Shown here in pieces: positions 2,788-58,135 of a stretch of DNA of 62,116 nt (positions are counted from its first letter, which is position 1; each line of letters opens with the position of its first letter). The translations under genes were made by a program, and so were the position numbers. Source of the DNA: a virus; IMG/VR virus record IMGVR_UViG_3300005527_000068, positions 1 through 62,116 of that record; one strand, given 5' to 3'. The notes below the pieces were generated by a model, which saw nothing but the letters and a program-made list of their open reading frames with translations, was not told the origin of the DNA and did not search any database.

Positions 2788-3670
2788 ACGTGTCAAAAAT
2801 TTTTCTATGGAACTCATCGTAGGTTAAATCTGGTGATATTGTTACAATAGGGTTAATTTTTATTTCTAAATTTATTGGTAGTTCTTTATTTAATATTTTT
2901 GCTGCCATATATCTATGATGACCATCTTCTATATAAAACCCTGGTTTTTTATTTTTAATTTTTAAAAATGAGACATCAATTGGTTCTGATAAGTTTATTT
3001 TTTTAGCCCATTCTTTTGGTGATAAACCGCTTTTTTCTATTTCATATACAACATTTTCCAAATCGGCTAACCATTTTAATTTTAATTCTTTTGGTTTTAA
3101 GGTTTTAATATCTTCTTCAGAAAAACCATGTGCTAATCTATCTAATAGTTCTATTGATAAACCACCACTTCTAAGTAATTGTTCTGATGTTTCATATTTT
3201 GATAATTCTTTTTTTAAATCATTAATGTATAAATCATTTTTAAATTTAAAAACATCATTATATAATGTGTTTTCAGTTATTAGTTCGTCAAAAATAACAT
3301 CCCATTTGGTTAGAGGTATCCACCCATATTTTGTTTTTATTTCTAATTTATTTACTGGGATATTTTCAAATGTTATATATTCATCACCTTTATTATTTTT
3401 TATTCTGTTAGACAATTCAAAATCATCAGTTAAAATTGTTCTTAATATTACCATTCTATCTTTACCACCTTTAGACATGGCATAATATTTTGCATAATCA
3501 ATATCGTTTGTGAAGCTAATTGAAGGTTTTATTTCACCAACATTATTTGTTTTAATATAACCATCTTTTTTTATATTGTTTGCAGCACCTTTACTAGTCC
3601 CATGATAAAGATAAATCTGTTCATTATTATTGGTAATTTCCCTTAATAGTTTTCTTATTAGTTGTTTCAT
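2777..3670 (-). CDS. Probable packaged ADP-ribosyltransferase fused to a ParB-like domain
   Basis: 297 residues. Residues 1-11 (MKQLIRKLLRE) form a short basic leader ending in LxxE, like T4 capsid-targeting peptides cut by the prohead protease. Next comes LYHGTSKGAANNIKKDGY (21-38), the His-containing first motif of H-Y-E type ADP-ribosyltransferases. SISFTNDIDYAKYYA (50-64) and DEYITFENIP (96-105) supply the Tyr and Glu regions. The C-terminal part has EDGHHRYMAAKIL (248-260), the DGHHR motif of ParB/Srx-like domains. The likely role, by analogy with T4 Alt, is a protein packaged in the head and injected to modify host targets. The next two genes have almost the same leader. The ART call is inferred from short motifs; the target is unknown. 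Confidence 0.6.
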   Translation of the reverse strand: MKQLIRKLLREITNNNEQIYLYHGTSKGAANNIKKDGYIKTNNVGEIKPSISFTNDIDYAKYYAMSKGGKDRMVILRTILTDDFELSNRIKNNKGDEYITFENIPVNKLEIKTKYGWIPLTKWDVIFDELITENTLYNDVFKFKNDLYINDLKKELSKYETSEQLLRSGGLSIELLDRLAHGFSEEDIKTLKPKELKLKWLADLENVVYEIEKSGLSPKEWAKKINLSEPIDVSFLKIKNKKPGFYIEDGHHRYMAAKILNKELPINLEIKINPIVTISPDLTYDEFHRKIFDTFSN

Positions 3671-3685
3671 TTATCTTTTTTTTTA

Positions 3686-4195
3686 TTAAAATAAATCAAT
3701 ATAATATTTTTGGGTGAATTCTTCTATTTTAAATAGGGTTCTGTTCATATCATTTATTATTCTATCTAATTCGTTTTTTGGTATTTCTTCATTATTTTTT
3801 ACCATTATTTCTTTATTATAAGATAGGGTTTCATTTAAACCTTTCATCGCAATAATAAAAACTCTAAATGTTAAATCATCCATTTCTTTTGGTTGCATTG
3901 TATGAAATTGATTTTTTATAATAAATTTATGAAACGTATTATCATTTATTTTATGTGGGTAATAAATGATTTCAGATGAGATGTTTAACTGTGGGAATTT
4001 TATTATTTCATCACCCATCATCATTGTTACGTTTTCATTATAAACTACTCTTTGTGCTTCTAATCTTTTTTCGTCTCTAGGGTGTTTAAATATATTATAT
4101 TCTTTAAGAAAAGGGATTCTTTTAATTAATATATCTTTAATATTATTGTTTGATTCTAAGTTTTCTCTTAGTAATTTTTTAATTAATTTTTTCAT
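3686..4195 (-). CDS. Unknown protein with capsid-targeting-like leader
   Basis: 169 residues starting MKKLIKKLLRENLESNN. I chose the ATG at 4195, 4 nt after the upstream stop, because it gives the shared leader; the frame continues only to a TTG at 4216. After the leader the protein is a soluble, mixed-charge domain with no motif I recognise (HPRDEKRLEAQRVVYNE near 40-55; a predicted helical C-terminus). It sits between two ADP-ribosyltransferase-like genes with the same leader, so it is probably a head-packaged, injected protein. Its function is unknown. Confidence 0.6.
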   Translation of the reverse strand: MKKLIKKLLRENLESNNNIKDILIKRIPFLKEYNIFKHPRDEKRLEAQRVVYNENVTMMMGDEIIKFPQLNISSEIIYYPHKINDNTFHKFIIKNQFHTMQPKEMDDLTFRVFIIAMKGLNETLSYNKEIMVKNNEEIPKNELDRIINDMNRTLFKIEEFTQKYYIDLF

Positions 4196-50785: not shown

Positions 50786-52642
50786 TTAATTTATACCGTA
50801 TTTATTCTTATCTAAATCAAAATTATATTTTATGTTTTCATATGGTAAATCACATATGTTAAATTTAAATTGAGACATACTACCAATAAAGGTACCAGCA
50901 AAATTTTGTTCTATTGGTAATCCTCTATCAGCCATATCTAACCCATCAAATGTTTGACTATCAATTAACCCTTGAGAACCACCACCTAAACTAAAATTAA
51001 ACGGAACACCTACTTGTTTTAAATAATGTTCATCAAGTCTTTTAGCGATAAACTCTGGAAAATTATCAACAGTAAATTTTAATTTAGAATTAATATAAAA
51101 CATTAGTTTACCTGTTCTTTGTGGTTTTGTTTGTAATTCACAATCAGTTAAATAATTTGTTGTATATCTTATTGTAATATATGACCATTCATCAAAAGTA
51201 ACTAAACCAGATAAAGAATATTCTTCTTTAATAGAAACGTTTGATTCATATAATCTTTGACCTGTGGATGCTGTATAACATGTTCCAGTAACTGTTAATA
51301 GTCTATAACCTATTTTACCATCATCTGTTATTATAAACGCTAATGCGTTATCAACAATATCTTTTTTGTAATCAACAACTGTTTGTGGTTTTGACCTACC
51401 ACTAAAACTACATTTTGTTTCAGTACCTAAACCATCATTTGGTCCACAACATGATGTGCATGTACAACCTGAAGATGAAAAACCAGCACCCCTACCATAA
51501 ATTAGAAAAGGGTTTTGATAATTATTAACAACTTCAACAGTTTTTTTAATTGCAATACCACCGCCATGATAACTACAAACTGTTTGTGTACCTAAACCAT
51601 CATTACTTAATAAATTACAAGTACAATTAGTTGAACTATTTTGTTGCATTGTTTGACCAGTGTTAATTAACACTGTACCAACTGAACCAGTTATTGTTGG
51701 TCCTCTATTATCTTGTGCTCTACCATAAATTAAAAAAGGATTTGTAATTATTTCTATTTTAACTTGTGGTGGAATTAAAGGTATTGCAAAACCATTTTCT
51801 TCTAAAACAGATATATCATCTTCTTTTATGGTTGTACACCATGTATTAACGGTTCCAGTACAACCAGAATCTTGAGTACAACCACTAGTACAACCAGTAC
51901 TATTACCATAAAATTGATTCCAAAATTTATTTTCAGCTCTTGTACCCATATAAAAGAAAATACCTTTATTGTCTGGATAAACTTCATTTAATGTTGTACC
52001 TGTAAAACCAGTAAATGAACATTCTTGTCTAGGTCTTAACCAAAATTCGGCTGACCATGCTTCGTTAACCCTTGTTGGTAATACTTTATAGTTTGTACCA
52101 TCTAACTTATAAAAACCTTGAAAAAAACCACCACATAGTTCTTCATAAACACCTTCAGTACCACCAGTAAGTGTTCTCCTAGGATAAACGTAATTACCAG
52201 TTGTTCCAGTAACTAAATTCATTGTAAATCTAGTATCACCAGATGTAATAACCAATGTAGATGCTGTTAATGCACTAAGTAATGCTAAATTACTGGTATC
52301 AGATTGGTCTTTTTGAAATGTTACTAAACCATTATCAATACCTGTTAACCCTAATGTAGTCATTGTGTAACCAGTATTAACAGCACCATTCCAATCAACC
52401 AAACTTAATAATGTACCTGTACTTGGATTGTTATTTTTATATGTTAAAGTATTATTAAAATCGTACCAAACGACAAAACAATCACCTGAAGACAATGAAG
52501 ATGAAGACCCAGCACCATTACCACCACCAACACTTTTTAAATATCTAACATTCTCATCAGTAGCTAAATAAAAATCCCAGTAATCAGAATTTGATAACTT
52601 TAAATCTATTTTGTTAAAATTGAAATTCTTAATATTCCCCAT
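50786..52642 (-). CDS. LamG-like, cysteine-rich adhesin
   Basis: 618 residues. The flanking β-sandwich pattern (NEAWSAEFWLRPRQ; FDEWSYITIRYTTNY; GKLMFYINSKLKFTVDNF) fits a concanavalin/LamG fold. An insert at about 250-410 is Cys-rich: TGCTSGCTQDSGCTG, then two related blocks each with NPFLIYGR and NDGLGT(Q/E)T(V/K)CS. The blocks are a duplication. It could bind surface glycans. It is one nt from the S74 fibre gene. Confidence 0.6.
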   Translation of the reverse strand: MGNIKNFNFNKIDLKLSNSDYWDFYLATDENVRYLKSVGGGNGAGSSSSLSSGDCFVVWYDFNNTLTYKNNNPSTGTLLSLVDWNGAVNTGYTMTTLGLTGIDNGLVTFQKDQSDTSNLALLSALTASTLVITSGDTRFTMNLVTGTTGNYVYPRRTLTGGTEGVYEELCGGFFQGFYKLDGTNYKVLPTRVNEAWSAEFWLRPRQECSFTGFTGTTLNEVYPDNKGIFFYMGTRAENKFWNQFYGNSTGCTSGCTQDSGCTGTVNTWCTTIKEDDISVLEENGFAIPLIPPQVKIEIITNPFLIYGRAQDNRGPTITGSVGTVLINTGQTMQQNSSTNCTCNLLSNDGLGTQTVCSYHGGGIAIKKTVEVVNNYQNPFLIYGRGAGFSSSGCTCTSCCGPNDGLGTETKCSFSGRSKPQTVVDYKKDIVDNALAFIITDDGKIGYRLLTVTGTCYTASTGQRLYESNVSIKEEYSLSGLVTFDEWSYITIRYTTNYLTDCELQTKPQRTGKLMFYINSKLKFTVDNFPEFIAKRLDEHYLKQVGVPFNFSLGGGSQGLIDSQTFDGLDMADRGLPIEQNFAGTFIGSMSQFKFNICDLPYENIKYNFDLDKNKYGIN

Positions 52643-54408
52643 TAAAAATCTTCTAAAGCAACTCTTTTCCAGTTGTTACTGGTTTTTATGTATAAATAAT
52701 TATCATCTCTTGTGATAGAACCATCAGTACCATTTGTATCAGTAGATGATGATGGCGTGTAAATCGGTATAATTAATTCTTTTGGTATTAAAGATGTGTT
52801 TGTAACCCAATTACCATTGTTATCAACAATAAATTCAGAATTTTTATCTGTATCTACACCATTAATAACGATAATACCACCACCATTAGCTGATTCATGA
52901 GAACCATTATAATTTAATTCAATATTATTATCTTCAGCAACAACTGTTTGAGTTGTTATGTTAATGTTGCTAACATTCGTATTATTGTCTGACAATTGTT
53001 TAATAGCTTCAACAATAATAGGAATAACACAATCTGTATGTACACCTTTATACCCACTTTTTTCATTTTTAAATACTAATAATGGCTCAACATCTTCAAC
53101 TTGTTGAGCAATAAAACCAAATCTAGGCTTTGTACCACCAGCTGACTTATCAATCCATTCATATGTTACACCACTTAATCCTTTTACTATATCTAAAGAA
53201 TTTTTTATTGATTTTATGTTTTCTTTCAAATTAATATCTGATGTGCTAGATGTTAAAAAACCATTAGCGTCAATATTAACATTATTAAAAAAAGCACCAG
53301 AACCTAAATTATCAATGTTTAAATTAACCACATGTGTTACATCATTTGCTTTACTACTAATACTTGGACCTAAAACAACTGAATCGTCATGTGTCGCCTG
53401 ACTAGCATTACCAAACGAAAAAGAACAAAGTCCTGTTGCTTGACTAGTATCACCACCAGCAAAAGAATAATCACCAGATGCTATTGTTGCTTTACCAGAA
53501 GCATGTGATGCAACACCAGAAGCTTCTGTAGAAGTACCTTCAGCATGTGAAGCATCATTAGAAGCTATTGTTGAAATACCTTCAGCATGTGAATAATTAC
53601 CAGTAGCTATTGTATCGCTACCTTCAGCATGTGAGAAAGCACCACCAGCAATTGTTTTAAAACCTTCAGACAAACTAGTGTCACCAGAAGATATTGTTTC
53701 TCGACCCAAAGATATTGAATAATTACCAGTAACTAGTGAATTATAATTAGATAATGCTAAAGAATATTGACCAGTACCACCAGACCAATAACCTGTAACA
53801 CCAGTTAAAGCTTTCCATTCTCCTTTACCCTCAGATGTTGAACAAACCCAAACATACCCAATAACAGGTGTTTTATTAATTATTAAATCATTTGTTCTAG
53901 TTATTCCAGATACATCAACCCAAATAGTTCTACCATTAAAATCTAAACTATTACCACTATAAACTGTTAATAATGTTGTTAAAATACCACCACTATAATT
54001 ACCAGAACCATCAACAGTCATACCTGTAACTAAAACATCATAAGAAACACCTGTATATGTTAATGCAATGGTATTACCATCAATAACTGTTGTTGTGTTT
54101 GCACTAAATACAAGATTAACTGTTTGAGTTACAGCAGAATTAGATGGTGTTATAGCAGATAATAACGGGTCACCAATAGACATAATCGGATAATTCCAAT
54201 TAAATATTGTTGTACCAGAATTACCTGAAAAACTACTTGTAAAAAAAACATATGTTTCACTAACACCAGTACTACTGGTATCAATACCAGATGGTAATTG
54301 TGAAAAAGGAACACCAAAAACTGTACCACCAGATAAATAGGTGGTTGTTTCAATGTTTTGTTTTATTTGTCTATTATTAGAATAATCTAATTTTGTTAAG
54401 AATGGCAT
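52642..54408 (-). CDS. Tail fibre with YadA-head repeats and S74 chaperone domain
   Basis: 588 residues. N-terminal anchor about 1-210. At about 215-345 are repeats of the YadA/trimeric-autotransporter head type (SHAEGxxTxA repeated: HAEGSDTIATGNYS, HAEGISTIASNDAS and more). At about 390 starts a peptidase S74 intramolecular chaperone: SDINLKENIKSIKNSLDIV and FGFIAQQVED. That domain usually drives trimer folding and then cuts itself off, though about 110 residues of another β domain follow here. Likely trimeric fibre. Confidence 0.82.
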   Translation of the reverse strand: MPFLTKLDYSNNRQIKQNIETTTYLSGGTVFGVPFSQLPSGIDTSSTGVSETYVFFTSSFSGNSGTTIFNWNYPIMSIGDPLLSAITPSNSAVTQTVNLVFSANTTTVIDGNTIALTYTGVSYDVLVTGMTVDGSGNYSGGILTTLLTVYSGNSLDFNGRTIWVDVSGITRTNDLIINKTPVIGYVWVCSTSEGKGEWKALTGVTGYWSGGTGQYSLALSNYNSLVTGNYSISLGRETISSGDTSLSEGFKTIAGGAFSHAEGSDTIATGNYSHAEGISTIASNDASHAEGTSTEASGVASHASGKATIASGDYSFAGGDTSQATGLCSFSFGNASQATHDDSVVLGPSISSKANDVTHVVNLNIDNLGSGAFFNNVNIDANGFLTSSTSDINLKENIKSIKNSLDIVKGLSGVTYEWIDKSAGGTKPRFGFIAQQVEDVEPLLVFKNEKSGYKGVHTDCVIPIIVEAIKQLSDNNTNVSNINITTQTVVAEDNNIELNYNGSHESANGGGIIVINGVDTDKNSEFIVDNNGNWVTNTSLIPKELIIPIYTPSSSTDTNGTDGSITRDDNYLYIKTSNNWKRVALEDF

Positions 54409-56855: not shown

Positions 56856-58135
56856 ATGAATCAAATTAATAAACAAAAAACTACCCCTGTAGGTCGTAAA
56901 TGTAAGGTACTTGTAGTCCCTTCAGACCGTACAGGGGTAGGTTAAATGGTTTTTTTAGGTCAACTAATCCACACATTGAATTAGAAAATAAATATCCTGA
57001 CTTATTTAGTGTAGATATTGATTATGAACCACAATTAGATAATGATGAATGGTTAAAACAATATGATATTATTCATTATCATAGAACTTTAGGTCCTTTT
57101 GAAACAATTCAAAATGTTTTAGATAGATGTAAAAAGCTAGGTATTGTTACTATTATGGATATTGATGATTATTGGGCACCAGGTAATCACCACCCAGCTT
57201 ATTTATTAATTAAAAATTCTGGTATGGATAAAAAAATTGAGAATAATCTAAGATATTCTCACAATATCACAACAACTACACCAATATTTGCTAAAGAAAT
57301 AAGTAAATACAACAAGAATGTTTTTGTATTACCTAATGCAATTGATGAAAAAGAACCACAATTCATTCCAACACCAGTTACATCAGAAAAATTAAGGATT
57401 GGTTGGTTAGGAGGTTCATCCCATTTAAAAGATTTAGAAATTTTAAGTGGATTAGTTAATAGATTAAAAGCAGATGGTTTATTAGATAAACTACAATTTG
57501 TTTTATGTGGATTCGATTTAAGAGGAACGCATACAGAAATTGATAAAAATACTGGACAACAAAGACAAAGACCTATTTTACCAAAAGAAAGTGTTTGGTA
57601 TCTTTATGAAAAAATATTCACAGATGATTATAAAACAATTAGTCCAGAATATAGAGATTTTCTATTAAAATTTGTGCAAGAAGAATATAAAGATGTTGAA
57701 AATGAACCTTATAGAAGAGTTTGGACTAAACACGTATCTAGTTATGCTACTAATTATAATTTATTTGATGTTTCACTTGCACCATTAGAAGAAAATGTGT
57801 TTAATAAGAATAAGAGTCAATTAAAAGTTATTGAAGCAGGTTTTCATAAAAAAGCTTTAATAGCACAAAATTTTGGACCTTATCAAATTGATTTAGTTAA
57901 TGTATTTAAGAGTGGTGGTGCAATAAATGAAAATGGTAATGCTATTTTAGTTGATTCTAACAGAAACCATAGTGATTGGTATAAAGCGATTAAAAGACTG
58001 ATTAACAACCCTGAAGTAATCGATATTATGAAAAATAATTTAAGTAACTTGGTTAAAAGTACTTATAGTGTTGATGCTGTTAATGAGACAAGAAAAAATC
58101 TTTATTTATCTTTATTAGAGAAAAATAAAAATTAA
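56856..58135 (+). CDS. Glycosyltransferase with internal frame break (candidate bypass)
   Basis: Frame from ATG 56856 encodes 29 residues ending VVPSDRTGVG, then TAA (56943). The second frame, open from about 56900 to 58135 without a good start before Met at 57155, encodes FFRSTNPHIELENKYPDLFS, YDIIHYHRTLG, MDIDDYW, PNAIDE and a C-terminal GT-B lobe (IGWLGGSSHLKDL; KVIEAG). GVGxFRSxxPH is one motif of this glycosyltransferase family, so both frames belong to one gene. If translation hops from GGT (56940) to GGT (56948) the product has 423 residues. Otherwise it is a pseudogene or an assembly error, or starts at 57155 lacking about 100 residues. It would transfer sugar to a virion or DNA target. 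Confidence 0.7.
56881..56940 (+). promoter_or_regulatory. Strong GC-rich hairpin ending at the frame break
   Basis: Bases 56881-56895 pair with 56925-56940: an 11-bp block and a 4-bp block with one bulged G, closing a 29-nt loop. CCCC/GGGG in the stem is unusual in this AT-rich genome. The 3' arm ends exactly at the first base of the GGT codon preceding the TAA. Confidence 0.8.
56940..56950 (+). other. Candidate take-off and landing codons GGT-TAAAT-GGT
   Basis: GGT (56940-56942) is the last sense codon of the first frame and is followed at once by TAA. An identical GGT (56948-56950) five bases later lies in the second frame, so a peptidyl-tRNA hop would fuse GVG directly to FFRS. Confidence 0.4.

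Follow-up and report, generated by a model that had tools for sequence, protein, structure and literature searches.

The 62,116-base virus record analysed here (the window) carries a glycosyltransferase gene that is broken between two reading frames, and we propose that this gene is very likely expressed through a hairpin-driven programmed translational bypass, a short stop-hop, which has been spread by homing cassettes. This proposal is inferred from sequence alone and no protein product has been seen. The features of the break site are the following:

56856..56945, + strand: ORF1, leader peptide MNQINKQKTTPVGRKCKVLVVPSDRTGVG and its TAA stop (29 codons, frame 0 from ATG 56856)
56881..56895, + strand: left arm of the stem, CTACCCCTGTA followed by GGTC, encoded by an N-terminal extension mostly absent from unbroken relatives
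56925..56940, + strand: right arm of the stem, GACC, a bulged G and TACAGGGGTAG, encoding the conserved DRTGVG motif
56940..56942, + strand: take-off codon GGT (Gly)
56943..56945, + strand: TAA stop, immediately 3' of the take-off codon
56943..56947, + strand: untranslated gap TAAAT, 5 nt
56948..56950, + strand: landing codon GGT, proposed to be re-paired without a second decoding
56951..58135, + strand: ORF2, encoding the main part of a glycosyltransferase of GT-B fold (phrog_7162) from FFRSTNPH onward

The anatomy of the site is shown directly by the sequence, which reads GGT-TAAAT-GGT-TTT-TTT-AGG. The frame of ORF2, different from that of ORF1, is open from 56951 (TTT TTT AGG, beginning FFRSTNPH) to 58135, and no ATG, GTG or TTG start is present in this frame upstream of 57155. 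An earlier, sequence-only reading had claimed a gene in two frames with a joined product of 423 residues, and this claim held (29 + 394). The skip of 8 nt that it had described also held as the length of the hop, the unpaired gap being the 5 nt TAAAT, and the window has exactly 8 nt more at the break than its homologues. The matching GGT codons and the stop after the take-off codon were likewise confirmed in the window, and the pattern proved general in 37 alleles. The hairpin that was said to end exactly at the take-off codon had to be refined, as the stem takes in the first base of this codon (56940), which is the last base of the right arm. Taken as a whole, the break in the window gene is very likely real, and neither a sequencing error nor the mark of a dead gene.

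Relatives were gathered from IMG/VR with the downstream protein as query, and more were added by DNA-pattern and endonuclease-directed scans; some of the cassette alleles came from DNA patterns fixing the take-off and stop bases, the landing codon never being part of a pattern. The conservation of the site is shown by 37 distinct alleles, from many samples, that are broken at one common residue (L053-L055 and L069 were found first, then L105, L154, L142, L136, L084 and L097). Their gaps measure 2, 3 (21 alleles), 4, 5, 6, 8, 9 or 10 nt and occupy all three phases, 23 of the 37 being divisible by three, and the joined protein has the normal family length in every broken allele. A stop directly follows the take-off codon in 37/37 (TAA in 18, TGA in 19). 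The landing codon equals the take-off codon in its first two bases in all 37 and in all three bases in 14, and the two-base match is also complete (25/25) among the alleles that protein-only scans can reach. Examples, given as take-off codon, gap and landing codon, are:

L176: AGC TG AGC
L181: GGT TAA GGA
L084: AGC TGAA AGC
window: GGT TAAAT GGT
L053: AGC TGACA AGC
L069: AGC TGACTA AGC
L183: GGT TAACTAAA GGT
L302: GGT TAACCAACA GGT
L322: GGC TGAATTTAAA GGA

In the 119 distinct alleles without a break, the sequence is M...KVLVVPSDRTGV[G/S][Y/F/K]FRS...PH and has no gap, and no family gene was found with a stop at the break site and no matched landing site. The take-off codons are solely GGY or AGY, whereas the unbroken copies often have TCN, GGA or GGG at that position (codon restriction in the unbiased set, p = 0.0019 for Ser and p = 0.0023 for Gly). 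Codons ending in a pyrimidine would be expected if one G34 tRNA class were favoured, a possible explanation that is only inferred. Selection on the downstream frame is shown by dN/dS values of 0.04-0.14 between the closest distinct pairs, and we therefore infer that the downstream protein is produced and in use.

In one further allele, L229 (2834-3030), the matched GGT codons of this site are 42 nt apart. Besides the 5' stem, another strong stem-loop, CCCCCAC...GTGGGGG, is located within the gap, a design closer to that of T4 gene 60 than the alleles with gaps of 2-10 nt are, but the stop is not adjacent to the take-off codon and the design is represented by a single allele. A generic scan for a bypass architecture over the window and the fetched loci gave 16 matches in the glycosyltransferase gene and 0 in shifted controls. 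Elsewhere the same scan gave 15 matches against 9-10 in the controls, and these other sites were rejected as background; four pattern matches (L174, L175, L180 and L184) were rejected as unrelated. Searches in annotated phage genomes found no nucleotide match, and the proteins there were at most 36% identical. As a separate observation, the glycosyltransferase at L057 (2956-4168) is spread over three frames while its near relative L010 is intact, and it is either a frameshifted copy or the result of assembly errors.

The hairpin 5' of the take-off codon is the strongest of the 75-nt folds in the 62-kb window, with a z of -3.2 relative to dinucleotide shuffles and of -5.3 relative to synonymous recodings of the same peptide, none of 200 recodings being as low. 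In the 36 broken alleles measured, the minimum free energy of the 5' hairpin is always between -23 and -38 kcal/mol, and the z relative to synonymous recodings has a median of -6.0, as compared with -0.09 in the 119 unbroken homologues; no recoding (0/200) was as low in 35 of these 36 alleles. The covariation of the stem is shown at position k9 (A-T 15, T-A 8, T-G 4, G-C 4, C-G 4, G-T 1; paired in 36/36) and at position k6 (C-G 32, T-A 3, G-C 1), and in 35 of 36 alleles an arm pairs better with its own partner than the mean of swapped arms. No comparable hairpin was present in any of the 119 distinct unbroken homologues. Hairpin and gap are either both present (29/29) or both absent (119/119). 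In all 11 phylogenetically independent pairs, a change in one is accompanied by a change in the other (p = 0.00098), a co-change that supports a coupling of hairpin and gap. We conclude that the hairpin is very likely under selection in the broken alleles. The leader measures 26-29 codons in 36/36 broken alleles, with 28 codons in 25 of them, and mostly 17-19 in unbroken genes; these leaders of 26-29 residues are conserved, although the enzyme also constrains their sequence. An AGCT...AGCT mini-hairpin is present at the take-off site of L053 and L069, and nothing convincing was found in the window as a take-off stem-loop enclosing the take-off and stop codons. No Rfam family was matched in the window.

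Two other features of the window were noted. At positions 414-465 lies an inverted repeat whose 23 bp are perfect and whose loop is 6 nt long (ATAAATTGGTCTTTTTAATAAAT). A tail-fibre-like protein is encoded on the - strand at 52642-54408, and its C-terminal part, SDINLKENIKSIKNSLDIVKGLSGVTYEW, was judged by eye to resemble an S74 intramolecular chaperone.

The structure predicted for the homologue L003 has a high confidence (pLDDT 92) and matches the GT-B glycosyltransferases GlgM, MshA and BshA. The break maps to the beta1-alpha1 loop of the N-terminal Rossmann domain. Expressed by itself, ORF2 would therefore be without beta1 and the glycine loop; on the basis of this model prediction, it is unlikely to be active. 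As many family members are unbroken, the hop is not required for the function of the enzyme.

Several other explanations of the break have to be considered. A pseudogene or an assembly or sequencing error, either as an 8-nt insertion or as two extra T in a homopolymer, finds some support in the existence of unbroken homologues and in the run of 7 T that adjoins the break in the window. This explanation, which the sequence-only reading had kept as an alternative, failed against the comparative data: the same residue is affected in 37 distinct alleles from many samples, with differing inserts and landing codons that are still matched, the downstream frame is under purifying selection, and the covarying hairpin is confined to the broken copies. 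We consider it very unlikely for the window and refuted for the class. A programmed -1 frameshift near GGT TAA, or readthrough of the stop where the frame permits, is also very unlikely. A single -1 shift in the window would indeed open the downstream frame (LNGFFRS), and the frame is kept in the 23 alleles with a gap divisible by three; however, GGT TAA offers no slippery heptamer (no X XXY YYZ), the three gap phases would demand three mechanisms (-1, +1 and readthrough), extra residues would enter a loop that is otherwise invariant in length, and neither process requires the matched landing codon seen in 37/37. Since the gaps occur in all phases and the joined length is exactly that of the family, no single frameshift, readthrough or reassigned stop suffices.

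Termination at the TAA could also be followed by reinitiation at the adjacent ATG (TAAATG) and a -1 slip on U UUU UUA, leading to a separate MVFFRSTNPH... chain. The window does have the TAA-ATG and T TTT TTA in the proper register, but the ATG and the heptamer are missing in other alleles that retain the hairpin, the stop and the matched codons, and the product would be without strand beta1 and the GT-B glycine loop; this possibility is all but excluded. Finally, the gap could be removed from the RNA by splicing or processing, without any hop of the ribosome. Excision between matching codons would likewise give a clean joint, and the 42-nt gap of L229 has its own stem-loop. Against this, gaps of 2-10 nt are shorter than any known intron, the window has no Rfam family, and the frequent mismatch at the third base of the landing codon fits the re-pairing of a tRNA better than a direct repeat, so that RNA removal is very unlikely as well. 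The short bypass resembling that of T4 gene 60, as had been suggested for the window, is thus supported by the comparative data (37 alleles, three gap phases, matched landing in 37/37, a covarying hairpin and downstream purifying selection), its product remaining unobserved. Uninterrupted homologues without a hairpin had been named beforehand as an outcome that would refute it; 119 such homologues exist, yet hairpin and gap are present or absent together.

In the bypass that we favour, the hop and its motor being inferred, the 29-codon leader would be translated up to GGT, with UAA then in the A site. The peptidyl-tRNA-Gly would release, the ribosome would slide over 8 nt and the tRNA would re-pair at the second GGU; decoding would restart with UUU as the first codon of the new frame, and the product would be a GT-B glycosyltransferase with the normal length of 423 residues. 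While GGU occupies the P site, the mRNA path of the ribosome would contain the right arm, leaving no more than the top of the stem free to pair behind the ribosome. The likely motor would be this stem behind the ribosome: the GGUC:GACC top would form its pairs immediately beyond the mRNA exit, and the lower 11 bp, kept apart as long as the ribosome holds the right arm, would zip and pull the mRNA 5'-ward. The displacements of 5-13 nt are close to the number of base pairs still to zip (roughly 8-13), and we therefore infer that the stem alone could set the reach of the hop.

The genomic setting of the broken alleles points to a mobile cassette, a setting that lay beyond the view of the sequence-only reading. 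The distribution of the broken state requires 22 changes on a tree of 149 sequences, of which at least 11 are forced by well-supported branches. An endonuclease-like gene lies immediately upstream in 18 of the 27 broken alleles whose upstream region was long enough to judge; among unbroken alleles, this holds for 1 of 116. It encodes about 300 residues with a NUMOD3 motif (Pfam match) and a match to phrog_3339 ('homing endonuclease'), and its 3' end overlaps the start of the leader or is only a few nucleotides away, in many relatives sharing ATGA with the leader start. The boundary of the insertion is shown in one pair, L084 and L093, which are near-identical save for an insertion of about 1 kb within the 5' end of the gene. 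The order in L084 is the old N-terminus MKKLKVLVVPSDRTGVS, the endonuclease, a recoded second N-terminus ending AGC-TGA, and the host gene from AAGCTACTTCC; old N-termini persist upstream at 3 loci, including L053- and L105-type loci. This layout indicates that the take-off codon is part of the cassette and the landing codon part of the host gene, and the third base of the landing codon varies because the host gene supplies it. Homing and immunity are inferred: leader, hairpin, stop and gap would form a mobile cassette carrying a recoded 5' end of the gene, and the gap, by analogy with T4 mobA/gene 60, would keep the conserved glycine-loop site broken in the DNA and make it resistant to re-cutting, while the protein remains whole.

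The window's own broken copy has no endonuclease gene beside it, and L097, compared with L095, similarly has a bypass without endonuclease. In L127 (around 3950-4040), a gapless gene retains both a leader of the bypass type and an intact left arm next to a decayed right arm, so that by its appearance it is possibly a cured cassette. The endonuclease-directed scan gave about 12 endonuclease-linked unbroken copies from which hairpin and gap are absent (L311, L313, L314, L315, L316, L319, L321, L323, L325, L337, L061 and L207). Endonuclease and bypass are therefore separable, and the idea that the endonuclease tightly tracks the gap was rejected given these copies, the relation being an association and not a rule. 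An insert near residue 195 in L053, L066, L067, L068 and L069, located at GWLGG/S (ends GGSC...GNSHLKD), was considered as an intron and rejected, since by sequence it is an intein; together with the bypass cassette, it makes two kinds of homing element in one gene.

Cassettes beside distant relatives of the endonuclease were mostly rejected as ordinary genes, and only L334 resembles a second gene; three distant endonuclease matches in bacterial genome contigs showed no bypass. L334 encodes a different, unrelated glycosyltransferase (Glycos_transf_1 with an intein), and at 2850-3000 (also in L374) the end of the endonuclease overlaps the GTG start of a short leader. This leader ends ...LMFCDHPLAP-S (TCT) and is followed by TAAAT and then ACC GGA GTT GGT, with a hairpin of -33 kcal/mol ending just 5' of TCT, while its homologue L375 reads LMLCDHPLAPSGVGIQ uninterrupted and lacks both hairpin and endonuclease. 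At the landing codon ACC, two of three positions pair with the take-off tRNA, and one allele is available. Because of this two-position match and the single allele, we infer from the sequence only that L334 is probably a second glycosyltransferase family with a bypass.

A bolder reading, which we lean towards as a joint claim without being confident of it, is that these loci represent a widespread class of mobile elements, each combining a homing endonuclease with a self-contained ribosome-hopping signal. In this reading, the signal would consist of a recoded 5' end of the host gene, a 5' stem-loop, a stop and a short gap; insertion would occur at the glycine-rich loop, in phage glycosyltransferase genes of 2 or more unrelated families; the lower stem (roughly 8-13 bp) would power hops of 5-13 nt, and the host codon would set the landing. 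The data also suggest that homing elements repeatedly resort to bypassing in order to live within essential coding sequence, as an option next to introns and inteins, and that gene callers split bypass genes. Dozens of natural variants at one site, which through evolution differ in the length of the gap, the stop, the codon pair and the sequence of the stem, make the rules of take-off, motor and landing directly testable.

To our knowledge, and within a prior-art search limited to the open-access literature, no well-established bacterial or phage bypass besides T4 gene 60 has been known in more than 35 years. In T4 gene 60, the codons match, a stop is present, a 5' stem-loop serves as the motor and the insert is linked to an endonuclease; this stem-loop is thought to pull the mRNA 5'-ward after the loss of codon-anticodon pairing, with the stop in the A site (PMC5009743, PMC11194080). 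Like the present alleles, T4 gene 60/mobA is a phage system with matched Gly take-off and landing codons, an adjacent stop, a 5' stem-loop, a link to a homing endonuclease and unbroken homologues in related phages (PMC5009743, PMC3014915, PMC11194080); in the model of Bonocora et al. (2011), the gap reportedly protects against re-cutting by the endonuclease. Gene 60 is also known for nascent-peptide signals and a take-off stem-loop, which form no part of the case made for the window. In contrast, the gap of gene 60 has 50 nt, against 5 nt in the window, 2-10 nt in the 37 alleles and 42 nt in L229 only, its leader has 46 codons instead of 26-29, and the glycosyltransferase case concerns another gene and spans 37 alleles in many phages. 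T4 mobA is an HNH enzyme, whereas the endonuclease of the glycosyltransferase cassette has NUMOD3 and a C-terminal nuclease-like domain, and mobA/gene 60 splits a gene into two proteins where the cassette duplicates the 5' end of its target.

The mitochondrial byps of Magnusiomyces capitatus are also numerous short untranslated inserts in coding sequence that are bypassed, but their bypass is reported to be independent of mRNA context and not to need a landing match (PMC5009743), unlike the phage glycosyltransferase alleles with their constant, specific 5' hairpin and matched codons at one site. The candidate in the terminase of the Streptomyces phage Hau3 shares the phage gene and the proposed short coding gap; it is, however, tied to UUA decoding, and a 5' stem-loop or an endonuclease cassette is unreported in the pertinent passages (PMC5009743). 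In synthetic E. coli stop-hops, matched codons around a stop lead to one amino acid from 9 nt, a form identical to that of the 21 alleles with a 3-nt gap, although those are constructs and not natural sequences. A 2016 review stated that no natural in-frame stop-hop was known and that shorter counterparts of bypassing were 'long presumed' (PMC5009743). The at least 37 natural versions in related phages, many of them adjacent to an endonuclease gene, suggest that the one-off ribosome jump of T4 is a member of a broader class of mobile elements.
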